This document shows, piece by piece, positions 18,378 through 38,326 of a stretch of DNA of 64,000 nucleotides (position 1 is its first letter; each line of letters opens with the position of its first letter). A program made the position numbers and the translations under genes. Location of the stretch: contig NC_091134.1 in the NCBI RefSeq assembly GCF_041381155.1, positions 70,240,469 through 70,304,468 on the forward strand, in the 5' to 3' direction. The notes under the pieces were generated by a model, which was given only the letters and a program-made list of their open reading frames with translations, had not been told where the DNA came from and did no database searches. Origin of the DNA: Argopecten irradians. Lineage: Eukaryota > Mollusca > Bivalvia > Pectinida > Pectinidae.

Positions 18378-19320
18378 TAATTTTAAAGACGCGTTGTTTC
18401 CGATTAGTGTATTTATGAACATGTATCAGTGAATGTAATTTTCATATTATTTTGACAAATACGCCGAGATACACCTAGATGTCTGACCATTTTTATGAAA
18501 ATTCGTGGATTTTAGATCATGTGTTAAACAAGTATATAGGGAGCCGGGAGATAGTGGATGTCAGGATTTTCTGACGCTAGCGCGCATTATGAAGATTGTC
18601 TGCAAAGCCCTAGCATCTATATAGACCATAGATGCCATAGGAAGATAATTTAATGCGTAAATATTGACAGACGAGTTTAAATTTTATGGTCCCCCGAAAA
18701 TATTCAAGTGCAGAACAGAAAGTGCCGGTGAATAAATCTTACCCAACTCAGTGACTCTCTTTTGGGTGATTTAACGACCGAGGACAGTGTCGGATTCTGG
18801 TGATATAGTTCATCGTTATAGAATCCTAAAGGAAAATAAGAAATAGTAAAATCAGAGATTGACACATCTCTCGAAATCTATCGGCACAACGGAATCGTCA
18901 ATGAATGTAGATGATGTGTTGGAGTGGATGTGGTCTAAATTGCCATTCTGCCAATAAAACGAGGTAGGCCTATTCACTTCGACCGCTGTTATAAACTTGC
19001 AATCAACAAGTTGGAACTTTTAATGGATGTTAGACGCAATTCGATTGGCTGAGGGAGGTCGTGATTTTGTGGAAAAAAAAAGTATAAATCTAGCGCCTAA
19101 AGCATTCCTGTTATTCTAATCAAGAAAGATAACTCCAGGATAGAGTATCTGCTCTGGTATGGTTTCAGTCTCGTTGAAGCTTCGTTTTCAACATTGATCA
19201 AAGAGTTTTTGTGTTTTTCAACAAATAATTGTCTCTATTTGTAGCAAGTTGTCAAACACAAATTATGTAAAAAATTAAACTTCTATTGTTTATAGAACCT
19301 TTAACACACGAATACACTTT
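18378..19320. other. intergenic stretch, nothing recognised
   Basis: AT-rich unique sequence; no exon, RNA gene or repeat structure can be supported. Confidence 0.5.
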
Positions 19321-19887: not shown

Positions 19888-21136
19888 ACAAGAGGCCCAT
19901 GGGCCTTAACGGTCATCTGACTCATGGCACAAAACAACAAAGTCACAGTATAAAGTAGTGGTTAACAATTAATATAAACAATACAAGGAACTCCTCAGTT
20001 GAATATGTAAGTTTATGAAATAGGTAAATGTCATTTGTTGAACAAACTTGTAGCCCTTCATCCATATATGGTTGTAACTCATTCAAGGATTAATATAAGG
20101 AGTCAGATTTTAAAGCCAATTTCAGCAAAGCTCCCATTTTGGACCTCCGCCTTACTATCCCCATGGGTCTTAGCTCGGTCCTTTATAAAATATGATTGTA
20201 CTCCACTAAAGTTCCCCCTTCTGAATCAATTAAAACCCCTATAGACCAATTTTCATTGAGATCGGAGACTGAAACCTTAAAACAGGAAGTGGGCCAGCGG
20301 CCATCTTGGAATACCAAAATCTTTACAAAATATTTTGCATCATGTTCAGCATTAATTAAAACCCCTATAGACCAATTTTCATTGAGATCGGAGACCTAGA
20401 CCTGAAAACAGGAAGTGGGCCAGCTAAAACTAAGAAAATTTGCCCTTTTGGGGCCCACCCCTCAGCCCCTAGGGGTAGGACCAGACTCATTTATATAAAA
20501 TATGATTGTCATTCCCCAATGATGTTTAACACCAAATATAGATGAAATCCATCCAAGGATGAAGGAGGAGTAGGATCTTAAAGCTAAAATTAAGAAAATT
20601 TGCCCTTTCGGGGCCCCACCCCACAGCCCCTAGGGCTCAGACCTATCTCATATATATAAAATATGATTTTCCTTCCCCAATGATGTTTCACACTATATAT
20701 GGATAAAATCCATTTAAGGATGAAGGAGAAGTAGGATTTTAAAGCTAAAATTAAGAAAAATTGCCCTTTTGGGGCCCCACTCCTCTGACCCTAGGGTTCG
20801 GACCAGGCTCATTTATATAATATATGATTGTCCTTCCCAATGATGTTTCAAACAAAGTATGGATGAACTCCATTCAAGGATGAAGGAGGAGTAGGATTTT
20901 AAAGCTAAAATAAGAAAATTTGCCCTTTTGGGGCCCCACCCCTCTGACCCTAGGGGTCGGACCAGGCTCATTTATATAAAATATGATTGTCCTTCCCCAA
21001 TGATGTTTCACACTAAATATGGATGAAATCCATTCAAGGATGAAGGAGGAGTAGGATTTTAAAGCTAAAATAAGAAAATTTGCCCATTTGGGTCCCCATC
21101 CCCCAGCCCATAGGGGTCGGACCAGGCTCATTTATA
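19888..21136. repeat. dispersed repeat with ~160-bp tandem core
   Basis: Opens with ACAAGAGGCCCATGGGCC, a terminal motif also found inverted at the right end of the repeat at 29984-30480. From about 20425 the core has four to five tandem units of about 160 bp, each with AAAATTTGCCCTTTTGGGGC, a CCTAGGGGTCGGACC word, TATATAAAATATGATTGTC and GAAGGAGGAGTAGGA. The Gypsy element entered the last unit at 21136, and the matching AAATATGATTG resumes beyond its far LTR near 28614. The open frames here are shadows of the repeat. Confidence 0.8.
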
Positions 21137-21842
21137 TGTTACATGAACGAATAACAGAAATGAGAAACCAGCAGCTAAATTCAAAACACAATTTAATTAT
21201 ATATACAATATTATACAGAGATGGTTTACAATATCTAAAGTAATTGGTGGTGGTACAAGAGTAATACGATGATTTAAAGTGTTACTTATCTGTATGTGAA
21301 TGTCCTGGTATAATCCTTGATCCTTCCAGGTTTCAAATTAACAATAATCACAAATCCACAAGGAAAATGAATGTCCACAGATGATTTGTAAAGTTCCAGG
21401 CAATATGAATAAATCCACACAAAGTGTTGTAATAATCCACAGATAAAGTCACAATAGCTCTCCCAATAGAATCTTATATGGCACTGTACAATTCTTGATA
21501 TGTCTAATTACAGGTCTCATTACAGTTCTGATTAGCTTTGGACAGTTGGAGTATATATAGCTAAACCCTAATTCAAGAATATTGGAGAACCTTCTACTTC
21601 TAGAAATATCTAACTAAAAACAGTAAACAAATAAACACACAGAACTTTCTGGAAATAGATCATTCTAGATCTCTACTTATAATCAACATGTTTACAAACA
21701 TATTTGTTTATACATGATAATATTCTAGAAAGTTCTATAACCTAAATCAATGATATGACCTTTATAGGATGTATTGATAATAAAGCTATAGGAGTTATCT
21801 CCCTTATCTCATAACTACATGTATTTAGTGTCATACATAACA
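21137..21842 (-). repeat. 3' LTR of the Gypsy element
   Basis: 706 bp, starting TGTTACATGAACG and ending CATACATAACA on the plus strand. It differs from the other LTR at only a few positions (for example ACATG/ACACG near the left end and a short T-run change near 21698), which implies a recent insertion. AATAAA-type words and a TATATATAG box lie within. Confidence 0.95.
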
Positions 21843-21858
21843 CACCCCTCCTTAAGGA
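21843..21858 (-). other. polypurine tract
   Basis: On the minus strand the bases just before the 3' LTR read TTAAGGAGGGGTG, a purine run at the position expected for plus-strand priming. Confidence 0.7.
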
Positions 21859-21907
21859 AAAGAAAGTTTTCTTGAAAAGGAAACTTTCTTGACATATCAA
21901 GTCATAT

Positions 21908-23227
21908 TTAAATCCTTGATAAAGCATCAGCCAGAATATTGTCTTTCCCTTTGATATGTTTGATGTCAAGATTGTACTCTTGCAAAGTCAAACTCCACCT
22001 GAGAATTCTTTGGTTTTTGTTTTTCATTTTCCCAATGAATGTCAAAGGGTTGTGGTCGGTGAAGACCAACACAGGCACAACTGTAGTGCAGAGATATACA
22101 TCAAATTGGTTCAAGGCCAAAATCAACGCTAAACATTTTTTCTCAATGGTGGAATAATTTCTCTGGTGTTTGTCAAACTTTTTCGAGAAATAACAAATTG
22201 GATGGTCAATTTGTTCAGAACCTTCTTGCATCAAAACAGCACCAACACCTACATCGCTGGCGTCAACAAACAGTTTAAACTGTTTATTAAAATCTGGAGC
22301 AGTCAGAACTGGTGAGTTTGATAGTATGGCTTTCAATTTCTCAAAGGCAGACTTACATTCGTCTGACCAGACAAATTTGACATTTTTCTTTAACAAAGCA
22401 GTAAGTGGAGCTGCTATAACAGAGAAATTTTGACAAAATTTTCTGTAATATCCAGCCATACCAAGAAATCTCATCAGCTCTCTCTTGCTTCCAGGAGTTG
22501 GAAAATCTATAATTGAATCTACTTTGGCCTGAACAGGTTTAACCTGCCCCTGTCCTACAACATGACCTAAAAATTCAACAGTTGCATGACAAAATTCACA
22601 TTTCAATAAGTTTAGAGTCAATTTCATGGTAGTGAGTCTTTCGAAGAATTCACGAATCCCGCGTAGATGGTCTTCCCACGTGTCGTGATAGTTGATGACG
22701 TCATCGATGTATCCATCACAGCCTTCCAGGTCTGATATCACGCTGTTAAGAAGACGTTGAAATGTTGCCGGGGCATTCTTCAGACCAAACGGCATAATTT
22801 TGTACTGGTACAAACCTTGTGAGGTTACAAATGCCGACACTTCTTTAGCTCTTTCTGTTAATGGCACATGCCAATATCCTTTCAACAGGTCAAACTTGCT
22901 TACGTACTTGGCTTTGCCAACTTTGTCAATACATGAGTCAATCCTTGGAATTGGATAAGAGTCTGTTTTACTGACAGAGTTTACTTTTCTGAAGTCAGTA
23001 CAGAATCGGTATGTCTTGTCTGGCTTTGGTACCAGAACACATGGAGAGCTCCATTCACTTTTGCTTGGTTCAATAATATCATTGTCCAACATGTATTGAA
23101 TTTCTTTCTTTAAATGTTCTTCTTTCAAAGGATTGACACGGTAAGGATGTTGCTTGACAGGTGGCGCATCGCCCACATCCACGTCGTGATAGATAGCATC
23201 TGTTTTGCCTGGTGTATCCAAAAACAA
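21908..23227 (-). CDS. Gypsy reverse transcriptase and RNase H
   Basis: A 439-residue frame covers the polymerase and RNase H. Visible RT blocks are SPCVLVPKPD, FCTDFRKVN, FDLLKGYWHVPL, MPFGLKNAPATFQ and the catalytic YIDD (plus-strand 22700-22715). RNase H follows with FVDASDVGVGAVL, FTDHNPLTF and NILADALSR close to the stop. The frame lies directly upstream of the purine tract and 3' LTR, so nothing follows RNase H. In the standard gypsy order the integrase would be here. The sequence just 5' of this frame contains a stop and a frame change, so the link to integrase is broken in this copy. Confidence 0.93.
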   Translation of the reverse strand: MFLDTPGKTDAIYHDVDVGDAPPVKQHPYRVNPLKEEHLKKEIQYMLDNDIIEPSKSEWSSPCVLVPKPDKTYRFCTDFRKVNSVSKTDSYPIPRIDSCIDKVGKAKYVSKFDLLKGYWHVPLTERAKEVSAFVTSQGLYQYKIMPFGLKNAPATFQRLLNSVISDLEGCDGYIDDVINYHDTWEDHLRGIREFFERLTTMKLTLNLLKCEFCHATVEFLGHVVGQGQVKPVQAKVDSIIDFPTPGSKRELMRFLGMAGYYRKFCQNFSVIAAPLTALLKKNVKFVWSDECKSAFEKLKAILSNSPVLTAPDFNKQFKLFVDASDVGVGAVLMQEGSEQIDHPICYFSKKFDKHQRNYSTIEKKCLALILALNQFDVYLCTTVVPVLVFTDHNPLTFIGKMKNKNQRILRWSLTLQEYNLDIKHIKGKDNILADALSRI

Positions 23228-23349
23228 ATGTTTAAACTAAAGTATCAAATCTTTCAGTTCTTTGCGTTCCTCTTCTGATAGATGACACAGTTTCTTGTCC
23301 AAGTTCGCGAGCACATCTGAGTTCCGTAACTTAACACCACAGTCTAAAC

Positions 23350-23676
23350 CTACATCTTGTAACCACCATCTAAGTCTACTTTACAAATATCAGCTGTACT
23401 TTCACTTTGTGATGGTACAGAGGCCAAAGTAGCAATAGGTTGAGAGGTCTTGCTCTCTTCTCTATCTACATATTTCTTAAGCATATTAACATGACATAAT
23501 TGAGTTTTCTTGCGCCTCCCTGGAGTTTGTACAATGTAGTTAACATCATCGACCTTTTTCTCAACAACATAAGGTCCAAAATATCTAGCTTGCAAAGGCT
23601 GACTCGGTATTGGTAATAGAGCCAAAATTTTGTCACCTGGATCAAAACTTCTTGTACGGGGGCATCTTTTTATCAT
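23350..23676 (-). pseudogene. Gypsy integrase C-terminal part (GPY/F module)
   Basis: Encodes FDPGDKILALLPIP, then RYFGPYVVEKK and NYIVQTPGRRKKTQLCHVN, the GPY/F-type C-terminal domain of Ty3/gypsy integrases. It is in a different frame from the integrase core that precedes it. The change falls at a run of five C on the minus strand (near 23657), so the break may be a real frameshift or a homopolymer error in the assembly. Confidence 0.8.
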
Positions 23677-24214
23677 ACCATGCTTTCATTTTGGTTTGAG
23701 CAACGGCCAAATTTTCTTTTGCCAGTTCACATGCCCTTGTCAACCTTTGCTTAAAATTACACACATACTCTAAGAGATTCACTTTAGAATCTTCGTCCAA
23801 AATTTTGTCTTTCAAAATTTTCAAAGGACCAGTGTGTCCAAACACAAGTTCAAAAGGACTGAAGCCAAGAGATTCTTGTACAGATTCACTAACGCCAAAC
23901 AACAACATGTGTATACCTTTGTCCCAATCTCTTTTGTTTTCAAAACAATAAGATTTCATCATATTCTTCAATGTCTGATGAAAACGTTCTAAAGCACCCT
24001 GAGACTCTGGATGATAAGCACTAGACTTACACTGCTTGATCTGGAGCTGGTACATTACTTGTTGAAAAATACCAGACATGAAATTCGAACCTTGGTCCGA
24101 TTGGACAGCTTTTGGAAGACCAACCAATGTAAAGAATTTAACCAAAGCCTTGACTATGTTAGGGGGCCTTAATATTTCTGAGTGGAATGGCTTCAGGAAA
24201 GCGTGTGGAAGCAC
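23642..24214 (-). pseudogene. Gypsy integrase catalytic core
   Basis: Contains the second and third catalytic acidic residues: SDQGSNF, then HPESQGALERFH, with exactly 35 residues between D and E. These are followed by the conserved SPFELVFG segment. The frame begins after a shift at a run of C on the minus strand near 24163. The first catalytic residue lies in the preceding frame (24159-24494). Confidence 0.85.
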
Positions 24215-24494
24215 ACATAATAGTTAAAAGATACTCATTCCCAGACTTAGTTTTGGGTAGAGGACCTACACAGTCTATAATGACTCTACTGAATGGTTCC
24301 TCAAATGCTGGAATGGGGTGCAAAGGTGCCACAGGGATTTTCTGATTAGGTTTCCCTACCACCTGACAAGTATGACAAGACCTACAAAAATCAGCCACAT
24401 CCCGTTTCAACTTGGGCCAAAAGAAGTTATCTAAGATCCTGTTATATGTCTTGGTCACACCTAAATGCCCTGCCATAGGTACATCATGAGACAA
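24159..24494 (-). pseudogene. Gypsy integrase N-terminal part
   Basis: Carries the zinc-binding region (a histidine in AGHLGV, then CRSCHTC) and the first catalytic aspartate in IIDCVGPLP, as in Ty3/gypsy integrases. It ends in a frameshift into the core frame. Its position between protease and reverse transcriptase is the key feature of this element. Confidence 0.85.
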
Positions 24495-24548
24495 ACTCAG
24501 AATATCTTGCCTATACCTCGGTGGGACAACTATTTGATTGACAACCTT

Positions 24549-26135
24549 CTAGTCTTCTTCGGGAGACACATCAGGGGGGCGCCACTTGCGCATCAACACA
24601 CCTGACTTACGGAAGTAACAAACTGGGACTTTCTCAGCCTCTTCCTCACTCAAAGCACGATTACACAATAAGGAGATTTCAGGACCTTTTTCCTGTTCTA
24701 CTATAAGCTCCTCTCTAGACAAAGATGATTTACTCATCATGTCAGACAAAGAAGTACCCTTGTTAGGAACAACTCCATCACTATCAAAGTCTACAGGATT
24801 GCTCAAAAGATCACACTTGCTCCCGATATCCTCTATATCATGAGCCAAGAAAGTGTCACCTAACCCTGGACTATAATGATCCTCAACTACTGCAACATCA
24901 GAAACCTTCTTACTCATTGAACGAGTTACAGCACAAGAAGAGAAAATACCAGGAAATTCCTGTTGAATAGTCTCGGCATCACCTGTTTTATCTGGAATAC
25001 TGGACACTAAGGGATCTACCCTAACTTTCTCTCTAGCCAAGTCATTGCCTAAAATGAGCGACACGCCCTCTATGGGAAGTTCCGGTCTAACACCAATGGT
25101 GACAGGCCCAGTAACCAAGTCTGACTTTAAATAAACACAATGGAGAGGCACATTAACAAAACCTAACTCTACACCTTGAAGCAAAACACTACTACCAGAT
25201 GAGGTCTCCTCAGACAAAGGCACTACACCATATAATATTAAAGAATGAGAAGCCCCAGTATCTCTCAAAATCTTCACAGGTTTCAAGTTGGTGATATCAC
25301 TAGTAAGTGAAACAAAACCTTCAGAAATGAAGGGAGAGTACTTCTCCAAGACACTATCAGACTCTGAGCTCTTAATCTCAACAGACACTTTAGAATCTTC
25401 CACAATATCACTAAGTTTCTGACTAGGCTTTGACATAGCTAACACAGAAGGAACTGACTGTTTACGCCTTTGCTCCTTACGCTGGAGAGAATAACATTCA
25501 GACATAATATGTCCTACTTTCTTGCAGTAATTACAAACAGGACCAGAAGGAGACCCCACACCTGCCCTATGATCTGTTTTAGAATCAGACTTAGTCTTAT
25601 CACCTAATTTAGGTTTGTCGTTAGAAGGGCCACTAAAGGTTGGGTTCCCAGGCTGACCAAATTTACTAGTACCTGTGGTACTGTTTTTGTCTTGAGAACT
25701 GTTTTTAACAAATGAGCCTTTGTGGGTGAGAGCGTAATCATCAGCCATTGTAGCTGCATCACTGAGTGTTTCAACTTTTCTCTCATCTAAATGAGTTTTT
25801 ATGTTTATGTGGACACAACGTTTAAACTCCTCTATCAACAATAATTTCCTCAATTTACCGAAATCCTCATCAATTTCTTTAGAATCACACCACCTATTAA
25901 ATAATTGTTCTTTTTCTCTGGCAAATTCTACATGAGTTTGTTCATCTCTTTTTCTCGAGTTTCGAAATTTCTGGCGGTAAGCCTCAGGAACTAACTCATA
26001 AGCTTTCAAAATAGCTTTCTTGACTACGTGGTAATTTGAAATGTCATCTACAGATAAAGAAGAATGAATGTCTCTAGCTTTACCAATCAAGACACTTTGA
26101 AGAAGCATTGTAAGCTTATCTTCAGGCCATTTCAT
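24549..26135 (-). CDS. Gypsy gag C-terminal part and protease
   Basis: A 528-residue frame. The first third is a capsid-like helical region (KWPEDKLTMLLQSVLIGKA, EAYRQKFR, then EQLFNRWC). It is followed by a CCHC zinc knuckle (CNYCKKVGHIMSEC) and an aspartic protease with DTGASHSL (plus-strand about 25239-25262). The N-terminal part of gag lies beyond the fold-back insertion at 26206-27238. A single TAA stop (plus strand about 26186-26188) separates this frame from the insertion point. No frame links it cleanly to integrase. Confidence 0.88.
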   Translation of the reverse strand: MKWPEDKLTMLLQSVLIGKARDIHSSLSVDDISNYHVVKKAILKAYELVPEAYRQKFRNSRKRDEQTHVEFAREKEQLFNRWCDSKEIDEDFGKLRKLLLIEEFKRCVHINIKTHLDERKVETLSDAATMADDYALTHKGSFVKNSSQDKNSTTGTSKFGQPGNPTFSGPSNDKPKLGDKTKSDSKTDHRAGVGSPSGPVCNYCKKVGHIMSECYSLQRKEQRRKQSVPSVLAMSKPSQKLSDIVEDSKVSVEIKSSESDSVLEKYSPFISEGFVSLTSDITNLKPVKILRDTGASHSLILYGVVPLSEETSSGSSVLLQGVELGFVNVPLHCVYLKSDLVTGPVTIGVRPELPIEGVSLILGNDLAREKVRVDPLVSSIPDKTGDAETIQQEFPGIFSSCAVTRSMSKKVSDVAVVEDHYSPGLGDTFLAHDIEDIGSKCDLLSNPVDFDSDGVVPNKGTSLSDMMSKSSLSREELIVEQEKGPEISLLCNRALSEEEAEKVPVCYFRKSGVLMRKWRPPDVSPEED

Positions 26136-26205
26136 ACTATCAGCTATTTTCTCAAAATGCAGAAAATACTTGTCAACTTCTTTCTCTTAAAAAGGAGGAA
26201 CTAAC

Positions 26206-27238
26206 CACAGGTGTTCGTTTCTAATATAAACATAAGTATAATACTGGGTCAAGGTCTATAACTCGGCCGGCCATATAACACTACCCAATTTCAGAAAAAG
26301 TATGATTATTAACCAACCGTATAGGATATGATAATAGGAATACTCTCAATCGACAGCCAGATAATTTATCTTTAATTTGGTATATGATACAATATATATC
26401 ATGCCGTATAAATGTCACTAGGTATCCAGAAACATCGGAAAACAGCCAGATTTCAACTGGTCGGACACTGTGGTGTCCTCCGATAAACACGCCAGGACTC
26501 TAATGCGTAGCTCAAAAACCACTGCATGTCAACACTTCAGCGTCATAAGAATGAAAGTTTGGTAGAAAACAAACTTACCGGTTAGTAAATCCATGGATAA
26601 ATACCATCCATTTGCCTATCGTAGCCCTTTGAAATTTCCGATTGAAAAATGTATGTCTCTAGCCGCCATGTAAGTATGTGTGCAGTAGATTTGTTTTGTC
26701 GGCGTTGATTGGCTCTCGAAAATTAATTGACCAATCAACGCCGAGAAAACAAATGTACTACACACATATCAACATGACGGCTAGAGACACACATTTTTTC
26801 AATTGGAAATTTCAAAAGGCTGTATTGAGCAAATGGATGGTATATAGATAAACACTAACATACCGGTAAGTTTGTTTTTCACCAAACTTTAATTCCTATG
26901 AAGCTGAAATGTTGACATGCAGTGGTTTTTGAGCTACCCATTAGAGCCCTGGCGTGTTTATCGGAGGACACCACAGTGTCCGACCAGTTGAAATCTGGCT
27001 GTTTTCCGATGTTTCTGGATACCTAGTGACATTTATACGGCGTGATTTATATTGTATCATATACCAAATTAAAGATAAATTATCTGGCTGTCGATTGAGA
27101 GTATTCCTATTATCATATTCTATACGGTTGGATAATAATCATACTTTTTCTGAAATTGGGTAGTGTTATATGGCCGGCCGAGTTATAGACCTTGACCCAG
27201 TATTATACTTATACTTATATTAGAAACGAGCACCTGTG
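26206..27238. mobile_element. 1,033-bp fold-back transposon in gag
   Basis: Almost the whole element is one palindrome centred at about 26722, with arms of about 500 bp and a short loop in GGCTCTCGAAAATTAATTGA. The termini are CACAGGTGTTCG and CGAGCACCTGTG. AACTAAC at 26199-26205 and 27239-27245 is a perfect 7-bp target duplication. Removing the insert and one duplication restores continuity of gag. The identical open frames in the two arms (26281-26490 and 26954-27163) follow from the palindrome. No transposase is encoded. The superfamily is uncertain because 7 bp is an unusual duplication length. Confidence 0.93.
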
Positions 27239-27245
27239 AACTAAC

Positions 27246-27772
27246 CTAATGTTTCTACTGACATCAAAACCTCTGTTTCCTTGTAAACCCCTAAAAGTTG
27301 GATTACTTGAACTGTCCTGAGAAGCTAGTTCTAATTCTTTAATTCTAAGCTCTGTTTCAGCTTGAATTTTCTGCTTCTCTAGTTCTAACATCTGATCTCT
27401 CTCAATCTCTTTTTCTTTTAATTCTCTTTCAATTTCTTTGTCTCTTAACTCTCTTTCTTTGTCTATTTCTTTTTCTCTTAACTGTTTTTCTATTTCCATT
27501 TGTCTTAGTTTCATTTCATGTTCAAGTTCCATTTGTCTAATTTGAATTTCTGAGCTGACTGTTTCCTCTATACTATCTAATGCACTAGAGTCAAATTTGC
27601 CATTGTCAACAAAAATTCTTATAATTACATTCCTAATTTCAGCTTTCCTCAAATTAGTTTTGATAGTAAGGCCTAAATGTTTACCCAATAACAGTAAATC
27701 CTTCTTACTAACTTGCAAAAGAACATCCAGGGATGGGGCTTTAACAAACTGTTCTACCTGCATAGTAGTCAT
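27246..27772 (-). CDS. Gypsy gag N-terminal part (coiled coil)
   Basis: Starts at ATG 27772 (minus strand), 130 bp after the 5' LTR. After an N-terminal helix it becomes a long charged coiled coil dominated by repeated KEIE, REKEID and RELRDKE words (residues about 75-150). It is truncated by the fold-back element; the last residues of the open frame (27215-27238) come from that insert. Confidence 0.85.
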
Positions 27773-27877
27773 GTTTATCTAGCTGTTGGTTTCAAATGTA
27801 AACTCCAAGTTTAAACACAAATTTTGAAAATTTCTTAATTAATTTTTCAAAGTTAGATTTCACAAATTAAAATATCG

Positions 27878-27897
27878 ATCTCGGACACGAGCCCCCA
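27878..27897 (-). other. primer-binding site, tRNA-Pro-like
   Basis: On the minus strand, five bases after the 5' LTR, the sequence reads TGGGGGCTCGTGTCCGAGAT. It begins with the TGG expected opposite a tRNA 3' CCA and resembles the proline primer site of other retroelements, with two extra bases. The tRNA assignment is tentative. Confidence 0.6.
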
Positions 27898-27902
27898 ATT
27901 CC

Positions 27903-28607
27903 TGTTACACGAACGAATAACAGAAATGAGAAACCAGCAGCTAAATTCAAAACACAATTTAATTATATATACAATATTATACAGAGATGGTTTACAATAT
28001 CTAAAGTAATTGGTGGTGGTACAAGAGTAATACGATGATTTAAAGTGTTACTTATCTGTATGTGAATGTCCTGGTATAATCCTTGATCCTTCCAGGTTTC
28101 AAATTAACAATAATCACAAATCCACAAGGAAAATGAATGTCCACAGATGATTTGTAAAGTTCCAGGCAATATGAATAAATCCACACAAAGTGTTGTAATA
28201 ATCCACAGATAAAGTCACAATAGCTCTCCCAATAGAATCTTATATGGCACTGTACAATTCTTGATATGTCTAATTACAGGTCTCATTACAGTTCTGATTA
28301 GCTTTGGACAGTTGGAGTATATATAGCTAAACCCTAATTCAAGAATATTGGAGAACCTTCTACTTCTAGAAATATCTAACTAAAAACAGTAAACAAATAA
28401 ACACACAGAACTTTCTGGAAATAGATCATTCTAGATCTCTACTTATAATCAACATGTTTACAAACAAATTTTTTATACATGATAATATTCTAGAAAGTTC
28501 TATAACCTAAATCAATGATATGACCTTTATAGGATGTATTGATAATAAAGCTATAGGAGTTATCTCCCTTATCTCATAACTACATGTATTTAGTGTCATA
28601 CATAACA
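27903..28607 (-). repeat. 5' LTR of the Gypsy element
   Basis: 705 bp, almost identical to 21137-21842. Its outer end (28607) lies 108 bp before the first ATG of the next gene, which is transcribed in the opposite direction. Confidence 0.95.
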
Positions 28608-28715
28608 TATATATAAATATGATTGGGAGGTCAATGATCAGCATATCGGGAAATATTGATACTTCACGCGGAATGAAACTTTATTGAGTTATCGTTCTTG
28701 GCTGCTGCGCTAAGC
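28608..28715 (+). promoter_or_regulatory. compact presumptive promoter/5' UTR
   Basis: Only 108 bp separate the LTR from the start codon of the RAG1-like gene. The first part is the resumed tandem repeat (AAATATGATTGG); the rest includes TATCGTTCTTGGCTGCTGCG with no clear TATA box. Either the core promoter lies here or transcription starts in or across the LTR. Confidence 0.3.
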
Positions 28716-28777
28716 ATGATGGGAACAAGATCGTCCAAAATCCGTCGAAGAGACGGCGAAGAAGTTTCAAGCTATTC
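28716..28777 (+). CDS. RAG1-like gene, exon 1
   Basis: ATGATG at 28716 opens 20 codons plus two bases, ending at a strong donor (TATTC then GTAAGTTT). The peptide is short and basic (RSSKIRRRDGEE). I chose this exon because its phase joins exactly to the exon at 29394, giving an uninterrupted frame into the chromo-barrel-like domain. The second ATG three bases later is an equally possible start. Confidence 0.55.
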
Positions 28778-29393
28778 GTAAGTTTATTATTGTTTACTGT
28801 CAGATAGACGTGCTATTTTTGTTTCGAGAAACTATTCACAATTGTTGTCCCCTCATATATCAGCATGTCAGTCTCAGAGATTAACACAATAAACTAAAAC
28901 ATCAGTGAAGCGAAAGGTGTTTGGCATTACCGGTGTTGACGGAAAAAAACGCCCAGCACATGTCGTATAGTAACTTGCGGAACGTAGACTTTTTGGCCAA
29001 AGTTTCATATTCTGATCAAGTTGCATTACCTACTGTAGTTTAATTAACAGTATCTGTTTTACAATTTTTGTTAACACCAACAATCAGAAGTTGCTTCTAT
29101 GGGGTTTCATGATTTTTTTTTAAATTTTCATTTAAGGACGGGGGAGGGGGGGATGGGCTGTACAATCTGAAATCTGACTAGATCTACATGATTAACTGTT
29201 TAGCTTGGCTTGTGATATTCTATATTCTATATTAAATAAAGCAAATCCAGATCAGCACAGATCAGTCTAACACTGTGGTGTACTAATATAGTATGGTGTT
29301 GCTTTCATATTTTTTCATTATTGTTGAGATTAATTTAATTCTTGGCACTGTGCTTGTGCAAGAATATATTTGTCTTCATTTTTTGTTTTACAG
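28778..29393 (+). other. RAG1-like gene, intron 1
   Basis: 616-bp intron bounded by GTAAGT and TTTTGTTTTACAG. It holds no recognised element; a short G-rich run (GGGGGAGGGGGGGATGGG) lies at about 29140-29157. Confidence 0.5.
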
Positions 29394-29539
29394 CGAATTA
29401 TGCAGGCCCCAGAAGATACCGAATTCTAGAAAAGTTCAAATTCAAGAAAAACACGATGGACTTAAGCTTTATCCAGTTGAAATAATAGAGCGCTCTAGAT
29501 CTGAAGATCAAAAACAAGGAGTAAAAATACATTACATTG
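29394..29539 (+). CDS. RAG1-like gene, exon 2 (first part of chromo-barrel-like domain)
   Basis: 146 bp between a good acceptor (TTTTGTTTTACAG) and a GTAATAAC donor. It encodes a basic stretch and then KLYPVEIIERS and VKIHYIG, the beginning of a chromo-barrel/Tudor-knot fold. The strand pattern and the IHYIG motif are typical of that family. It ends with one base of a glycine codon, completed by exon 3. Confidence 0.65.
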
Positions 29540-29588
29540 GTAATAACCTTTAACAGCACTTATATTATAAATGTCTCATACAGGACAA

Positions 29589-29905
29589 CATCCTCAATAC
29601 TCCAGGGGTTCCGATCACATACGATCTCTACACCCCTGGACTATCTCATAGTAAAACTGAAGGCAGTTCAGAAGAAAATATCTGACCAATCACAGGCCTG
29701 CAAAGATTTCCTTTGAAGACTACAGAGAGAGCGACACCCAACTTCAAAGCCACACAGTCAACCACAGTGTGCCGTTATACGGTTCTTTTGATGTACATCA
29801 AAGGACTAAATTACCTGTTCTTTCCAGTTGCCTCCAGTTTTACTATGAGATAGTCCAGGGGTGTAGAGATCGTATGTGATCGGAACCCCTGGAGTATCGA
29901 GGATG
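29589..29905. mobile_element. MITE with 9-bp target duplication, copy 2 (in intron 2)
   Basis: 317 bp, with 70-bp inverted repeats starting CATCCTCAATACTCC and ending GGAGTATCGAGGATG. ACAGGACAA at 29580-29588 and 29906-29914 is a perfect 9-bp duplication. Same family as 9001-9318. The length of the duplication suggests a Mutator-like source. Confidence 0.93.
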
Positions 29906-29983
29906 ACAGGACAATTACTTACACTATACAATTCACATGTCTCATCAATAGGATTACAATTGTATATGGTGTCATGATTGCAT

Positions 29984-30480
29984 TTTTAGCTCACCTGGCC
30001 CTGCCGGTGAGCTTATGTAATGGCGTGGCATCCGTCGTCCGTCAACTTTTCACTAAAATCCCTACTATAGTCATAAACGGATGAATGGATTTTCACCAAA
30101 TTTGGTCTGAAGCTTCCTTGGGTGAAGAGAAACCAATCTTGTATAAACGGTGACCCTGGCCCCCCAGGGGCCTGAGGAGTGGGGCCCAGGGGAAATATAG
30201 CAAATTCTTTAAAATCATTCTTCTGTGGGAAAGAAGGGATTTAGTTCTAATTTAGTCTGACGCTTCCTTGGGTGAAGTGGAACCAATTTTGTATAAACGG
30301 TGGGGCTGTTCCCCAAGGCAGGTGTCAGAGGGGTGGGGCCCTATAGGAGAAATATATCAAATTCTTCAAAATCCATCTGTAGAAATAAATAGATTAAGTT
30401 CAATTCTAAAGCCTTCAAGTTGGTAGCTTGTGTTCTTAGCCTGAAACAGGTGAGCAATACAGGCCCAATGGACCTCTTGT
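29984..30480. repeat. hairpin-ended dispersed repeat (in intron 2)
   Basis: Begins TTTTAGCTCACCTGGCC with a self-complementary AGCTCACC...GGTGAGCTT hairpin. Two internal units of about 140 bp follow, with TTCCTTGGGTGAAG and ACCAATCTTGTATAAACGGT-type words. It ends GGCCCAATGGACCTCTTGT, the complement of the motif that opens the repeat at 19888. A hairpin near one end and no target duplication are compatible with Helitron-like elements, but this is not shown. Confidence 0.65.
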
Positions 30481-30606
30481 TAATAAAGTGTTTTAGATAT
30501 ACATACGTAAAGCTGAATTGTCTACACAAATTATAATTCAAAGACAGGTGTTATTGACTGTCACTGATATACATAAGCGGGATTGGACTGGGTCGATCAT
30601 CGGTGA

Positions 30607-30685
30607 CCAGGTACATGTAGCTCAGTCGGTAGAGAACTCGGCTAGTGTGCGGAGAGTCCCGGGTTCGAATCCCGGTCTGGCCCCT
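30607..30685 (+). repeat. tRNA-like sequence (SINE head or tRNA pseudogene)
   Basis: A box A-like TAGCTCAGTCGG and a perfect box B (GGTTCGAATCC) with a 5-bp T stem (CCGGG/CCCGG) are correctly ordered. The acceptor ends do not pair and the anticodon stem is poor. It is therefore not a functional tRNA gene but a tRNA-derived pseudogene or SINE head lying in intron 2. Confidence 0.6.
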
Positions 30686-30784
30686 GCATTTTCTTCTCTC
30701 CTTTTACATACATATGAAACATTTATGAATTATCAAAGTGGCATGAACATTTTTGCATAACTATTTTTTTTTTAATTCAAATAG

Positions 30785-30879
30785 GATGGCCTGCCAGATA
30801 TGACGAATGGAGGGACCCAAAGGAATTGGTGGTCCATGATACAGATCCGGAACAACCACAGATATTGGAACAACTTCAT
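30785..30879 (+). CDS. RAG1-like gene, exon 3 (end of chromo-barrel-like domain)
   Basis: 95 bp after a T-rich acceptor (AATTCAAATAG) and before a GTATGT donor. It completes the glycine codon and encodes WPARYDEWRDPKELV, the diagnostic second half of a Tudor-knot/chromo-barrel domain (IHYxGW...YDEW). It ends in phase 0. Domains of this kind bind methylated lysine or nucleic acid in MRG15- and MSL3-type proteins; the ligand here is unknown. Confidence 0.68.
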
Positions 30880-31097
30880 GTATGTTCATGTATATAGATG
30901 AAATAAGTTGTGCAATTTCCGCAAAAGTTTTGTTTTGGTCCAAGTGTATATTTTGAAAGTCTAGTACCTTCGATACGTTTAGTACCTTGGATACTTTGCA
31001 TAAGTGGGATGTCATATATATTGATAAATATGTTCAAATGTGATAAAAAAGGGTGTTCGAAAGAACTTTCAAAGACTTAAGTTGAACCAATAAGGGC

Positions 31098-31255
31098 CGA
31101 GTTGCTAGGATATCCTGACATATTGGTATTACCATAAGCCCTCCACCTGTCTGAATCCCATATAGGGCAGTTGCCAGGTGCTGACAGCTGGTCGGTTTTT
31201 CTCCACCATCTCAACATCACATGTCTTTAAATGACCCTGGCTGTTAATAGGATGA
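31098..31255 (+). mobile_element. SINE fragment, plus orientation (intron 3)
   Basis: Matches the complement of the neighbouring SINE: AGCCCTCCACCTGTCTGAATCC, GGGCAGTTGCCAGGTGCTGA and GACCCTGGCTGTTAATAGGA-like words in the same order. It is diverged and lies head to head with 31263-31477, forming an inverted pair within intron 3. Confidence 0.7.
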
Positions 31256-31262
31256 TAATCAT

Positions 31263-31477
31263 TTGGTTTTATTAGTTTATCGTCCCATTAACAGCAAGGG
31301 TCATGTAAGGACTTGCCAGGTTTGTTGGTGGAGGAAAGCAGGAGTACCTGGAGAAAAACCACTGACCAGCGGTCAGTTCCTGGCAACTGCCCCACATGGG
31401 ATTCGAACTCGCGACCCAGAGGTGGAGGGCTTGTGATTATATGTCCGGACATCTTAACCACTCAGCCAACGCGGCCC
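31263..31477 (-). mobile_element. tRNA-derived SINE (intron 3)
   Basis: On the minus strand it starts with a tRNA-like head (GGCCGCGTTGGCTGAGTGG, then a box B-like GGGTCGCGAGTTCGAATCCC region). Body words follow, with CTGACCGCTGGTCAGTGG and a T-rich tail. A second full copy lies at 38102-38326. Confidence 0.8.
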
Positions 31478-31922
31478 TGATCATTAATAATTGACGATAA
31501 TCAATCTACTCAAATCAAACCAAACTTTTCAAAAACTTATCGATACAGACCAGTTGTTTTAGTTTCAATGTAAGTGTATTACACATACCGGTATTTTACA
31601 TGTACATTTAAAGGTCATTAGAGAGGCCCTTTTTCTCTAACCATTCAAGTGGCCTCCAAGACAGGTTTGACATACAGATACCTGATTGTGTATTTATTCA
31701 TTCAGCTAATTAGTTTTTTATGGTCAAGGGTCCAAGTTTTGACCACCGAGACAATGAGCTTGTCGTCAAGATATATTGTAATATCTTTCTTAGATTAATT
31801 ATATATAAGCTCATATCCACAACACATCATCAAAATATAAAGTTTTAAATCTGGGTAGTTGGTACACTGTTTTAATTTTCTCTTTATCTTGCAGAATTTT
31901 TAATTTTCTTTTTATCTTGCAG

Positions 31923-32332
31923 AGACTCCTGAAAGAAACGTTGGGACCATCCAAAAAGGACTCCTTTAAAAACATCAGAATTCCCCTGGCCAACCAAAAA
32001 GAATTTTCGTGTTTGTCATCAAGAGGAACAGTATGTAAGCAAACAAAAACAAAAACCATATACACCATTAGGAAAAGAAATGACTTAACCCCAATATTAG
32101 GAGATAGTTGGGACTACCGGGTTTTCAACAAGGAATGTGACAATGTCTATATAATAACATCTACAGTGAAGTTCTACATACACGAGAGGAAGCCGTTGAC
32201 GGACTATGTAATCTACCCAGACCATTGTCAGGAAACAAAGATAAGCAGAGGATTTACCTTATGCTTCAACTTTGTTGTAAAGAATGGGAATAAGAGCAAG
32301 TTGATGGATCTGATAAGCAAAGATACTTTATT
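31923..32332 (+). CDS. RAG1-like gene, exon 4 (unrecognised domain)
   Basis: Starts after TTTTCTTTTTATCTTGCAG in phase 0 and ends at GTAAGA (32333), leaving two bases for the next exon. It encodes 136 residues, basic in the first half (KETLGPSKKDSFK, CKQTKTKT) and then a compact region with GDSWDYRVFN, DNVYIITSTVKFYIHERKPL and FTLCFNFVVKNG. Alternating hydrophobic strands suggest a globular beta-rich domain that I cannot assign. An upstream CAG (ending 31894) would introduce an immediate stop, so the second acceptor is chosen. If the last intron is not removed, the protein ends at the TAA 32334-32336 region as a stand-alone product of about 239 residues. Confidence 0.6.
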
Positions 32333-32405
32333 GTAAGAAATACATATATATAAGTGTGAAAGTATTTTGAGACAACTTAACTGTTAGGCAAAATTGTACT
32401 TTTAG

Positions 32406-34593
32406 TTTATGTGTGGTGACAAAGATAAGACATGTTCATATGATAATGTCATCAGGATTTGTACTTCAAAAAGATGTTGTTTTCAAAATTATTGAAAGCC
32501 AGTTTTGGCACAAGGCACTTAGCCTTGAAATGGTTGCACTGATACAAAAGGAAATTGAAAAAGAATACTCTGTTAAGTTTTCTGCTACTAACAGTGACAG
32601 GAACAGATTACGTTCATTTCTATTCAAGCTGAAATCAGATGGTTTGAGAAAAAAAAGAAAGGGTGGAAGACAGTTTGAGGCATTTAAGAATCAGCTGCAT
32701 CATGAGAAATACACTTGGTTTGTTGAGGTTACACATGACCAGAGTAACAACTTGGAAAGGGAAAATGAAAATCTCAGGAAAGAAAATGAATTTTTGAAAC
32801 AAGAAATTAAAGAAAATATAACACATATAAGACATGTAGAGAAAAAATGGAAAGCATCCTGTGAAAGGTTTCAGGAAAAATTAAACTCTGTTACTCCTGT
32901 TTCGGTTAAGCGCAAAAAACCGTTAAGTGATTGTACTAATTCTTATGTGAGCAAAATTCGAAAGTCAGAAATTGGAGAGTGCAAGAAAGCTTTACAATTT
33001 TTTGAATCGGATGAATGTAGTGTAGTTGAGGTGACTGTGATTAGAAATGGAAAGAAAGAGATTCTGTCATTGGTGGATGATTCTGATGTGTCATCAGAGA
33101 AAATACTTGACATGAATATGTTGATATATGTCCTTGACACATTTCATATTTCGCGGTCAGGTTATCATGAATTGAGCATGCTCTTCAAGTCTTTGCCTCG
33201 AAGTTTTTCTGTATCAGAACAAATTCATTTGATTAATTCCAGCTTTAATATTAGAGAAACTCCCGATGGGTTAGGAGTACAACAATCATTGAGGGAAAGG
33301 ATAATGGCTGTTGTGAAAAAACTGATTGAGCAGGATTCTTGTAATTTTGAAGATACATTGCACATAAAAATATCAGGGGATGGTACGAAAGTTGGCAAAA
33401 AACTGCATGTGGTTAACTTTTCTTTCACTATCATGAATGAGGCTCGTTGCGGCTCAGTGGAAGGGAACTACCCCATTGCTATTATAAGGACAAAGGAAAA
33501 GTATGAGGAACTGAAACTGGCTTTGAAAGATTTTCAAATGGAGGTGAAGCAGTTACAAAACTGTGAAGTACAAATCTGTGAAAAAACATATAAAGTAAAA
33601 CTTTATCTTGGCGGTGACTACAAATTTTTGTTAACTGCTTTAGGAATGCAGTCAATTTGTTCGCAGTACTCGTGCCTTTATTGTAAATGCCCTAAGCAGG
33701 AAAGGGGAGATTTGGAAAAACAGTGGTCAATTAAAAACTGTGCCTTTGGAGCTCGACCTGTTGACTATGTGTATGAAGCAAACAAAAGTAAAAAGAGAAA
33801 GCAGGCAACATATTCTGTGGTTAATGAACCCATTTTTCCAGAGATACACCTCACTGATGTAGTTATAGATGTTTTGCACTTGTTTCTCAGAATAACTGAC
33901 AAGTTAACTGCTTTGTTAATTATGGAACTTAGAACACTAGACAACATAGCAACAAAAAGCACTTTTCCGTCCGGTTTAGATAAGACCAAAGCAAAACATA
34001 TAGCACAGTTTGAAATGGTCATGGAGCAGCTGGGCATTCATTTTGAATTTGGAGTTGAAAAAGACACATCAAAACTATACTACACTGACTTGAATGGGCC
34101 AGAGAAGCGTTTGCTTTTCCAGAAATTGCAAATTTCAGATATTCTGGAAGACCAAGAAAGATCAGATGGTATTCAAGATCTTTGGAATGGATTTTTAGAA
34201 ATTCATGATTTACTACGCTCTGACAACCCATATCATGCTGTTGTGAAAGAAAAAGTCCAGTTATGGGGGTCAAAATTTGTGATTCTGTATCAGTCCCGAG
34301 ACATTACTCCATACATGCATATCCTATTTTACCATGTGGCTGAACTTATTGAAATACATGGAAATATTTCAAAGTTTACTCAGCAGGGACTTGAAAAGAT
34401 GAATGATGTATGTACAAAGGCTTACTTCAGGAGCACTAATCACAAGAACAACACTGCATTGAAGCAGATTCTTGAAAAACAAAACAGACAGCATCTCTTA
34501 GAGCACAATTTTCGTGACAAGGAAAAGACAGTGACATGCAGCAATTGCAAGAAGGTAGGTCACAGATGTGGAAAATGTCCAGAAATATGCTGA
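32406..34593 (+). CDS. RAG1/Transib-like DDE transposase-derived protein, exon 5
   Basis: The exon begins after ATTGTACTTTTAG (73-bp intron) in the phase left by exon 4, giving a protein of about 966 residues. Visible in order (full-length numbering): a helical N-part; a coiled coil with ENENLRKENEFL at about 352-398; an RNase H-like core with D563 in SGDGT; a CLYC zinc pair (C661, C664); D726 in IDVLHLF; HILFYH (H876, H881); E901 in QQGLEKMN; and a C-terminal CCHC knuckle (CSNCKKVGHRCGKC). CxxC, HxxxxH and the acidic triad are in the same order as in RAG1. The H-to-E spacing of 20 residues equals that of vertebrate RAG1 (H942 to E962). All catalytic residues are present and the frame is unbroken. 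No RING or nonamer-binding region is seen. Without splicing, translation could start at ATG 32440. Confidence 0.82.
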
Positions 34594-35573
34594 TCGATCT
34601 AGTCAGACACTTGAGTATCAGGAGTTGGTACTATCACTGTGGTGATTTAAATAGGATCACATATATTTTAAAGGAGTGGTGAAAAAGTTAAAAGACTACA
34701 AGACAATGCTATATGACTTACCTGATTGATAAGTGATACACATGTACATACAAAAATGTACATGTACATTATGTACATGTATTTACGAAATATACACAAT
34801 TTAGTTTTGGAATGCAGGTAGCATTATATTTATGTATTAAAAATCAAATATTTGTCTTTGTTATTTCTTTCCATGAAAGCTGTCGTATTTTAATTGGAGA
34901 ATTTTTTTACTGTTGTCTAGTCATCTGTCAAGATTTTTTTTAAATTGATTTTTTATGATATTAATTATTTACCTTTGTGTTGATTGTGATCTAACTTTTC
35001 TTTTATTTTTAAATTATTTTTTTGTGTTGTTGAACTGTTCTTATGTGTCTGTTTAAATAAAAAAATGAACTCTTGGTATGTTGTTAAGTTTTAATTTATT
35101 TCATCTTGTCAAAATATATAAAAATTAATATTCACATTTGAGGAAATGAGAATGATGTGTACAACATGTATATATACAATGCATATGAGGGTTGTATATT
35201 GTACAGATATTGAATAAAACCTAATATTGAACATATGCCCATATAAATAAAAATGCATTTATTATAGATCTGCAAAACATGAACATGTATACATGTACAT
35301 TGTAATTGGTGTCAAGTTTGATGACACTGGCTGTTGTAAGAAAAAAAACCAATTGAAATACCATATTTTGTAATATTAAATAGGATATTTTTAATGATGT
35401 TTATTATGATTAGACATTTCTATCTTAAATGTTTTCGATTTTCGTTCTTAAAAGTAAAACTTCAATGCCAATGTCTAGGGCGGAATAAATTTTATAGGGT
35501 AACAAATTCCCTTGGTACACACCGTCCGACTCCAAATTCTATTTAAATGACGGGGTTTTCTCAAAACAAATCA
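34594..35573 (+). other. 3' untranslated and downstream sequence
   Basis: AT-rich. Overlapping ATGTAC words at 34738-34785 form a small palindromic cluster. No gene is seen. Confidence 0.5.
35056..35061 (+). terminator. polyadenylation signal, RAG1-like gene
   Basis: AATAAA about 465 bp after the stop, followed by a T/G-rich stretch (TTGGTATGTTGTTAAGTTTT). Another AATAAA lies near 35212. The exact 3' end is unknown. Confidence 0.45.
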
Positions 35574-35700
35574 TTTCATTGGTTGATAAAATTAGATGAT
35601 GGTAAATCTCTCTACGTCATACTAAAGGTAATAGGGGATTGGTCGAGAACAAGAGAAGTTATATATACGAAACCCGGGAACTCCTGCAAAGCGCACCTTT
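35574..35700 (+). promoter_or_regulatory. candidate RNA polymerase II promoter
   Basis: Two inverted CCAAT boxes (ATTGG at 35578-35582 and 35638-35642) lie upstream of a TATATATA box at 35660-35667. The region is more GC-rich than its flanks. The spacing is plausible for a TATA promoter firing near 35690. The only open frame downstream is the weak one at 35846. Confidence 0.35.
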
Positions 35701-35845
35701 AGTTCTCGTTAACTGATGGTCTCATGAGTTCAGAAGAAACGATTTTGACGGTGAAATTTCATCTGCTTTGCTATCAAACATATATTTAATATTCTCAGAA
35801 ATACTTAAACTATCAGCAGATGGAAGTAATAATGATACTTTTTAA

Positions 35846-36175
35846 TTGATTGAAAATAACAGACAAAAAACTGTACAGTATCGAGCTTTCCTCCTCGACA
35901 AACGCACTTACTTAGCAAGAACGATAACTCTGTATATTTTTCGGAGTACAAATATTTCCCGCTATGGAGGAGGTATTTTCATCTTCAAAATCGAGGGAGT
36001 TAGGGTAGCATGTACTGTTATCCCTGAGCAGAAAGAATGGGTTGACTGTGTGGTGTTATTATCTAAACATCGGTTTTATCAATTTTGCGAATATTCATAT
36101 TTATCAGACAATGTGGAAAACATTGCTTTATATCATGTGTATTGTCAAAACAGTGAAATTCCGGTAAAATCGTAA
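35846..36175 (+). CDS. doubtful open frame, 100-odd residues
   Basis: An open frame starting from TTG, or internally, codes for a peptide with regular hydrophobic spacing (GGGIFIFKIEGVRVACTVIP, WVDCVVLLSKHRFYQFC). No family is recognised. Part of its nucleotide sequence (TTTTCATCTTCAAAAT then GGGAGT) resembles the repeat at 19720-19755, so it may be repeat-derived. It could be an exon driven by the promoter-like region upstream, but no splice site is convincing. Confidence 0.2.
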   Translation: MIENNRQKTVQYRAFLLDKRTYLARTITLYIFRSTNISRYGGGIFIFKIEGVRVACTVIPEQKEWVDCVVLLSKHRFYQFCEYSYLSDNVENIALYHVYCQNSEIPVKS

Positions 36176-36413
36176 ATTACTTTAAATATCCATCATTGAT
36201 TCACAAGCACACCACCATATTGTTTTATTTTCGTCTTTGATTAGTCAGCTAAACCTGCCTATATTATTAGTCTTTATCTATGTAAAAAAAACTTATTATA
36301 AAGGCAGGTTTAGTGGACTTAACTTTGATATGAACGCCTATTTCCAAAAATCTATATAAGAAAAAAAGTAAGTCATCAGAAAAATTTGGCTTTTCACCAG
36401 AGCAGATCATTAA

Positions 36414-36570
36414 AGGCCCACTACCTTTCCGAAACGGCTTTTAATTTTTTAAATGGGAATGTAAAACAAGATCGATAAATTTGTAGAGTCCTAAAAATTA
36501 TTATCTTACCGTTGATACTACACTTATCTTCACCTTCTGAACGATTTGATTAAAATAAATATATACTTCC
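36414..36570. mobile_element. TTAA MITE, left-half fragment
   Basis: Starts at a TTAA with AGGCCCACTACCTTTCCGAA and continues through ACCTTCTGAACGATTTGATT, as in the complete copies at 53644-54045 and 58240-58638. It stops where LINE sequence begins; the right half is not found nearby. Confidence 0.8.
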
Positions 36571-38101
36571 AATGTCCTGTGCACTAGTCGTAGAGCCGAC
36601 TTAGAATTCCACATAGGTGAAGTTGTGTGGACTGAGATCAAGTTTCCAAATAAAAAATACCTTCTCTGCACAGTATACTGACCTCCAAATTGCATACACA
36701 CTTTTTGGAATTCCTTCCGGTTCTCCCTTGAATACTCATTGTAGGCGATATCAATGTAGACCTTCTTACAGCAGACAGAAATCATCCTTTCATAAGCACG
36801 ATAAATCACTTTCATCTCACCAATGTAATAGACAGACCGAGTAGAATCGGGCGCACGTGCGACACACTCCTTGACGTTATTCTTTTATCTGACACATGTA
36901 GTCACACCTTTGCGGACACTATTGATATAGATCGTGATATCTCTGATCATCAGGCGACTTGTGTAGAATTGACTGTAGGCACAACGATAACTAAAAACTT
37001 TAATAGTAAAATCTGATGTTATAATGATGCAAATTTTGATCTTTTTAATAATAAATTAAAGACGACTGACTGGACTGAACTTTTTTCTCAAACAGGTAAT
37101 GTAGATGACATGTGTCAAGTTTTTTTCAGATAAATATTTAGGCATAGCAGACACGTGCATTCCTTCCAAAATTGTAACCATTAGGCCAAATGATAAACCA
37201 TGGTTTGACTAGGACATGAGACGAGAAATTAGGAAACGAGATAGACTGCTTCATAAATATAAATCTAATCGCACTCCGTTAAATTTAAATAACTTTAGAA
37301 AACAGCGCAATAAAGTTAACAATCAAAAGAAAAGAAAAAAAAGAATTGTTTTATGCGGACATTAATGGTCTCCTCGATAACTTTAGTAATTCAAATCCCA
37401 GAAATTTTTGGAAACTTGTCCGCAGACTTATTAAAAATTCTGATGTATCTAACTGTATTCCTCCTTTGCGGAGTGCGACTGGAATTATTGAAATTGATGA
37501 CTACACAAAGGCAAATATTTTAAACGACTACTTTATATCAATATCCAATATTGATGACAGGGGGGTGGAAGTTCCTATTGCTGAACCTAGAACTGACTCT
37601 ATAATCTCTGACGTACCAGTTACCGTAAATGCCATAATTGACATTCTCAAACCATTAAAAAGTGGGAAAGCAGTAGCACACGATTCAAGTAGTCACATTA
37701 TGCTAAAAAACACTGCAAGTGCAGTAGCCTACCCTCTTTCTATTATCTTTCGTACCTCATTAGAGACTGGATCCTTTCCTACACAATGGAAACGTGCATT
37801 AGTTATTCCTATATTTAAAAGGGTGACAAACAAGATCCTTCAAACTATAGACCCATTTCATTATTATGTACAATTGGTAAAGTATTTGAGGGACTAGTCG
37901 CAAAGTACTTACATAATTATTTGTTAGATAATTCGCTTATTTATAAATATCAGTCTGGTTTTCAACCTGGACATTCTACTACTCATCAACTCATAGAAAT
38001 CTTTCAAAATATATGTGATAATTTGGAAAAAAGACAACCAACCTGTTTAGTGTTCTGTGATATCTCTAAGGCGTTCGACTGAGTGTGGCACAGGGGATTG
38101 G

Positions 38102-38326
38102 ATTTTGTTTGTTTGTTTGTTTAGTTTTACGTCCTATTAACAGCCAGGGTCATGTAAGGACGTGCCAGGTTTGTTGGTGGAGGAAAGCCGGAGTACCCGG
38201 AGAAAAACCACCGGTCAGCGGTCAGTACCTGGCAACTGCCCCACATGGGATTCGAACCCGCATCCCAGAGGTGGAGGGCTTGTGGTAATATGTCGGGACA
38301 TCTTAACCACTCGGCCACCGCGGCTC
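38102..38326 (-). mobile_element. tRNA-derived SINE inserted in the LINE
   Basis: 225 bp, flanked by perfect 11-bp duplications CAGGGGATTGG (38091-38101 and 38327-38337). On the minus strand it has a tRNA-like head (GCCGCGGTGGCCGAGTGGTT, box B GGGTTCGAATCCC) and ends in a tail of repeated AAAC words. Removing it and one duplication restores the reverse transcriptase reading frame. Same family as 31263-31477. Confidence 0.95.

Follow-up and report, generated by a model that had tools for sequence, protein, structure and literature searches.

RAG1 is the enzyme that assembles antibody genes, and its partner RAG2 reads a histone mark through a PHD finger. RAG1-fold enzymes cut DNA by hairpin formation and strand transfer. 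Here we describe a locus from the scallop Argopecten irradians that we regard as probably a transposon with two tandem genes on the same strand: open reading frame 1 (ORF1), for a chromo-barrel-like domain and a further conserved domain, and ORF2, for a cut-and-paste transposase with a RAG1/Transib-type core. The locus lies in a window of 64,000 nucleotides (C1:70240469–70304468), and positions given without a contig refer to this window.

Published families provide several points of reference. The CMCT clade is described as having 5'-CA..TG-3' ends and a target-site duplication of 2–5 bp (PMC12730594). Passages of PMC4411706 place Transib, TransibSU, Chapaev and Chapaev3 in one superfamily, passages of PMC3985635 identify DUF1280 with Chapaev transposases and group it with RAG1, and the CTT* motif is defined in a passage of PMC7204232. 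The scallop element has the D, D and E of the CMCT clade at the RAG1 positions, the C(2)C and H(3–4)H pairs between the second D and the E (here CLYC and H(4)H) and CA..TG ends; no duplication was found in the four copies read at both ends. We recognised no paper describing this family with a chromo-barrel gene in a search that left Repbase, most subscription journals and preprints outside its reach.

Judged by its sequence, the locus (28642–35966) is a DNA transposon of 7.3 kb and not a domesticated gene. The left terminal inverted repeat (28642–28700, plus strand) runs from CATATCGGGAAATATT... to ...GAGTTATCGTTCTTG and makes a gapped inverted match to the right one (35966–35916, minus strand), which reads CATAGCGGGAAATATTT inward. 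This pair scores 42, compared with shuffle maxima of 30 and 40, and none of 500 shuffles was as good in either of two tests. Copies were sought in the 845.8-Mb A. irradians assembly. Copy 2, at C1:30.72 Mb, is homologous to the window between 28644 and 35969, apart from one small break, and not beyond; because this homology stops at both repeat ends, all five exons discussed below lie inside the transposon. The right end is common to the window element, copy 2 and a third, broken copy on C10 (L011). A diverged lineage has sharp ends reading CATATCACGAAA on both sides (left ends in L014, L028 and L027; right ends in L014, L027 and L033). The window's ends read CATA.., and CA..TG ends are found in two lineages.

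The predicted ORF2 transposase

ORF2 is a single exon of 717 residues on the plus strand (32440–34593), starting where database entry P0001 starts. It lies in an open frame (32371–34593) that carries the core motifs named in an earlier, sequence-only reading of this DNA: D563, CLYC, D726, HILFYH and E901, with 20 residues from H881 to E901, and a terminal CCHC knuckle (CSNCKKVGHRCGKC). The catalytic triad proposed in that reading (D563, D726 and E901) is retained at its first and last positions, whereas D726 matches D792 in the D-x-L-H motif of RAG1. The place of RAG1 D708 is instead taken by D642, which lies 19 residues before CxxC, as D708 does. By hhalign, D563 (33379–33381) corresponds to RAG1 D600 and is D in 103 of 104 aligned rows, with one gap, and D642 (33616–33618) is D in all 104. 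Alignment and hhalign together equate CLYC (33673–33684) with the ZnC2 ligands C727/C730, HILFYH (34318–34335) with the ZnH2 ligands H937/H942, and E901 (34393–34395) with E962. The knuckle (34537–34578) is an exact Cx2Cx3GHx4C, the CTT* motif of invertebrate RAG1L. A region previously described as a coiled coil (32749–32889; exon-5 residues 116–162) is a long helix in the DSSP assignment of the predicted model.

A protein search found 91 relatives. In exon-5 numbering, to which 237 is added to obtain the numbering used above, D326, D405, C424, C427, H639, H644 and E664 occur together in 61 of the 104 aligned rows; of the remainder, 39 are gapped at one or more of these seven positions and 4 carry a substitution. 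The motif set exceeds chance, given this number of relatives and this degree of conservation. The knuckle is exact in 39 of 103 database relatives (the window's own entry included), or in 39 of 55 when those too short to show it are set aside. Homology to RAG1 is detected with the family profile and hhalign and is sub-threshold with the single sequence. The predicted structure has a RAG1-like fold and also matches that of HzTransib, the Transib structure, though HzTransib is absent from the family profile search at E ≤ 10. Zinc-finger and RING profiles are absent from the Pfam matches of ORF2, and the family profile aligns a segment to the nonamer-binding domain of RAG1 at only −0.8 bits. The family tree contains 64 rows, after removal of six long-branched rows, a duplicate entry of the window and all rows less than 85% filled. 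Searches of GTDB genomes and IMG/VR with family patterns gave no confirmed relatives among 161 and 58 matched stretches, respectively. Between 28642 and 35966 there is no other ORF of at least 150 residues (stop to stop) on either strand, although a gene of small exons could escape this count. No Kelch-PHD gene turned up in the same interval, where no search aimed at Kelch or PHD was made.

A doubtful but serious alternative is that the locus is a catalogued member of the Chapaev or Transib group whose two-gene layout is already in Repbase. A Pfam scan covering 76 of the 103 relatives matched DUF1280 in 5 and RAG1 in 7 at E ≤ 0.001, which fits this assignment, as does the grouping of those two families in the passages of PMC3985635 cited above. 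The window protein itself lists neither RAG1 nor DUF1280 among its Pfam matches at E ≤ 10, and ORF2 lacks the zinc-finger and RING profiles. The CATA.. ends also speak against a catalogued element, and the best candidate for CAC..GTG ends with a 5-bp duplication was no better than shuffled sequence. We favor a transposon in which a RAG1/Transib-type ORF2 is paired with ORF1.

ORF1 and the boundary between the two frames

ORF1 is assembled from four plus-strand exons. Exon 1 (28716–28777) opens with ATG and ends at a GTAAGT donor, and its best frame has a log-odds (LOD) score of 0.1, which is weak evidence because the exon is short. Exon 2 (29394–29539) encodes the first half of the chromo-barrel-like domain (LYPVEII...IHYIG), with an LOD of 10.0 compared with −12.3 and −31.2 for the other frames. 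Exon 3 (30785–30879) supplies the second half (GW...YDEW), and exon 4 (31923–32336) encodes a conserved 136-residue domain and its own stop codon (TAA, 32334–32336). These codon scores were trained on ORF2 and compare the three forward frames of each exon. The claimed frame scores best in each of exons 1–4, and exon 4 reaches 1.6, whereas the best forward frame of 47 stretches taken as non-coding scores at most −7.3. An acceptor AG stands immediately before the exon 3 motif in four diverged lineages, matching the window in both position and phase, and exons 3 and 4 have homologues in the L005 lineage that form one continuous open frame. The 5' part of the gene model is upheld by these three observations.

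Residues 42–97 of ORF1 match, below the cut-offs, the Pfam models MSL3_chromo-like (E = 0.0019) and Tudor-knot (E = 0.024). The best match in the PDB is MRG701 (E = 0.011), and 30 of the 31 PDB matches are MRG, ARID4, MYST, MBT or CBX proteins, as sorted by name. The aromatic positions of the domain are presumably kept relative to MRG15. The second half of the motif recurs as GWNKKYDE in the L005 lineage, GWPRRYDEWR in L029/L030, GWHSKYDE in L022 and GLPKRFDE in L025; when ten sequences were scanned with a regular expression, six gave a hit and copy 2, L013, L031 and L032 gave none.

ORF1 and ORF2 recur together. When same-strand rows separated by less than 5 kb are merged, the 39 genomic matches of the exon-4 module reduce to 33 loci. 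At 20 of these a core match follows downstream in the same orientation, within 700 nt in 19 cases. By the same procedure, at least 63 rows matching the core resolve into at least 33 loci, many of them with stops.

The sequence-only reading had joined five exons (28716–28777, 29394–29539, 30785–30879, 31923–32332 and 32406–34593; 62, 146, 95, 410 and 2188 nt) into one frame of 966 residues and a stop, so that exon 4 would be spliced to exon 5 and the transposase would carry its chromatin reader in cis. The GT/AG borders and the continuous frame are indeed present, and the splice sites in the window are canonical. Copy 2 keeps an AG just upstream that would give the same exon start, and the open stretch ahead of the L025 core likewise contains AGs. 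The donor GTAAG nevertheless overlaps the ORF1 stop (TTG-TAA-G), and the splice is most likely not real. At 13 of 13 distinct loci read (from the 33 with exon 4, duplicates of one place being counted once), a stop codon (TAA, TAG or TGA) closes the exon-4 domain, its position agreeing to within one residue, and L022 and L025 have no GT there. The start of the core could be read at 11 loci, and 7 of them, among these L026 from the subfamily of the window, lack any AG in the open stretch that precedes it; this count covers that stretch and not acceptors deeper within ORF2. L023 has AGs before its core but also a stop inside the stretch. The other scallop relatives inspected begin no more than a few residues from the Met at 32440, the longest of the first 91 relatives does not exceed 795 residues, and none of 579 candidates of about 531–1690 residues matches the N-terminal 240 residues. 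The fused protein is thus improbable as the main product: the shared ORF1 stop, the missing acceptors and the relatives starting near the Met at 32440 indicate that ORF1 and ORF2 are likely two reading frames, ORF1 having its own stop.

Copies, constraint and neighboring repeats

Both reading frames are constrained. Against diverged copies, the ratio of nonsynonymous to synonymous differences per site (pN/pS) is 0.36–0.47 for exon 4 of ORF1 and 0.41–0.46 for the ORF2 core, values made rough by near-saturation of synonymous sites. In the subfamily of the window, the corresponding ratio of substitution rates (dN/dS) is 0.29–0.68.

The core of copy 2 (C1:30720350–30722530; its upstream part is L009/L010) is 98% identical to that of the window, and its ORF1 residues 20–61 are identical. 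Exon-4 pS between the two is 0.18, compared with 0.035 for the core, which suggests that copy 2 is a mosaic whose exon-4 part is more diverged than its core.

The suggestion that the locus is a domesticated single-copy transposase gene of scallops would accommodate the intact frame and catalytic residues in the window and a related Argopecten protein (P0002) that is 90.7% identical to its Pecten maximus counterpart (P0003), but is very improbable and is contradicted by the terminal repeats, by the sharp-ended, 98% identical copy 2, and by the start of P0002, which is that of the L005/L014 element, bounded by end repeats and represented by three further stretches 97–99% identical in DNA. The likeness of P0002 and P0003, despite the gene lying in an element bounded by terminal inverted repeats, may reflect vertical persistence or transfer between scallops. 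In L014 (C1:5983500–5993400), the exon-4 domain has its final 78 codons repeated twice more in tandem, 340 nt apart (3642–3875 and 3982–4215 of that locus), between ORF1 and ORF2, and the same stop ends each repeat.

Several findings weigh against a two-gene transposon with a chromo-barrel-like ORF1. Four copies (window, copy 2, L014 and L027) were read at both ends, and none has a target-site duplication at the ends as drawn. A few exact duplications of 3–4 nt lie nearby, displaced from the ends by some bases. L014 could alternatively be read with CAC ends and ATAT duplications, the target then always being CATATG; the window's own right end (CTATG) does not fit this reading. The end motif GAGTTATC..CTTG, part of the inverted pair, occurs 8 times in the window compared with 2.07 expected. 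Copy 2 has one stop in ORF2, its exon 4 is split over two frames, and its ORF1 looks broken, since exon 3 is gapped and 75% identical. At 13 of the 33 loci with exon 4 no core match follows closely downstream, and at 12 of these there is none within 10 kb. The Tudor-knot or chromo barrel assigned by the sequence-only reading is supported by its sequence pattern and PDB matches, but not by Pfam scores, which fall under the cut-offs (18.7 compared with 28 bits and 15.0 compared with 20.8). Among the ten sequences scanned, only the window yielded the first half of the motif, apart from a stop-filled match in L032; the scan missed the first half in copy 2, part of which is found there by tblastn. 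The exon-4 domain matches nothing in Pfam at E ≤ 0.1, and its PDB matches are sub-threshold lectin repeats (best E = 0.011), none of them meaningful.

The window also contains other repeats. A Gypsy-type long terminal repeat (LTR) retrotransposon (21133–28609) stops some 32 bp short of the transposon's left end; its LTRs (21133–~21844 and 27899–~28609) are near-identical, and its reverse transcriptase/RNase H and SCAN-like gag frame are on the minus strand. Intron 2 holds a hairpin-like miniature inverted-repeat transposable element with inverted arms (29589–29905) and a stretch that looks tRNA-like by eye (about 30620–30690), and intron 3 holds a repeat (31263–31475) with a 90% copy at 38112–38324. 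These three are probably younger insertions into the element's introns. An Rfam scan of 28500–37000 gave six matches at E ≤ 1, every one under its gathering score. Tandem arrays include one of a 34-bp unit from 2057 onward (84 overlapping copies of a 300-nt reference), one at 17755–18454 (35 bp), three of 223 bp at 41.6–42.1, 47.6–48.2 and 52.9–53.6 kb, and one of 156-bp units at 51323–52090 with an open frame of 207 residues.

Proposed mechanism and comparison with known systems

ORF2 would pair two CATATC/CATAGC ends, then cut and re-insert them using D563, D642 and E901, with its Cx2Cx3GHx4C tail helping to hold end DNA, a role that CTT* has in lancelet RAG1L. As an accessory protein, ORF1 could direct the complex by binding methylated histone tails, and the two proteins may act as partners. 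In such a scheme ORF1 would work like the PHD finger of RAG2 without being related to it, and nothing we found points to ORF1 as a RAG2 relative. We suggest, tentatively, that a RAG1-related transposon lineage gained its own chromatin-reading partner independently of RAG2, in which case the pairing of recombinase and reader arose at least twice. An unrelated, chromo-barrel-like partner gene on a RAG1-fold transposon would make it testable why RAG1 and RAG2 became partners.

ORF1 shares the LY...HYxGW...YDEW pattern with the chromo-barrel proteins MRG15, MSL3 and ARID4, and differs from them in its sub-cut-off Pfam scores and in its location on a transposon. ORF2 appears to differ from Chapaev transposases in lacking a zinc-finger or RING profile, as judged with general Pfam models that include no Chapa model. 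Chapaev elements duplicate 4 bp of target, a duplication not seen at the scallop element. Likeness to Chapaev consists of the weak DUF1280 matches in 5 of 76 relatives and of CA..TG ends as in the CMCT clade (PMC12730594); the evidence being mixed, we have not filed the element as Chapaev. Transib, whose Subgroup I has CTT1 (PMC9435367), differs from the element, which has a second gene and ends that do not start with CAC. The RAGL transposons (RAG1L plus RAG2L; ProtoRAG and TransibSU) share with it the RAG1-type core, ZnC2 and ZnH2, the Cx2Cx3GHx4C form of CTT* and two genes per element. Here, however, the second gene is chromo-barrel-like, no Kelch-PHD gene being seen, the genes are tandem rather than convergent, the ends are CATA with no 5-bp duplication found, and there is no RING profile. 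The element is not filed as RAGL or Transib because its ends, when tested, did not follow the CAC rule. A family that combines a RAG1L-type CTT* tail with non-CAC ends bears on the relationships among RAG1L, Transib and Chapaev.

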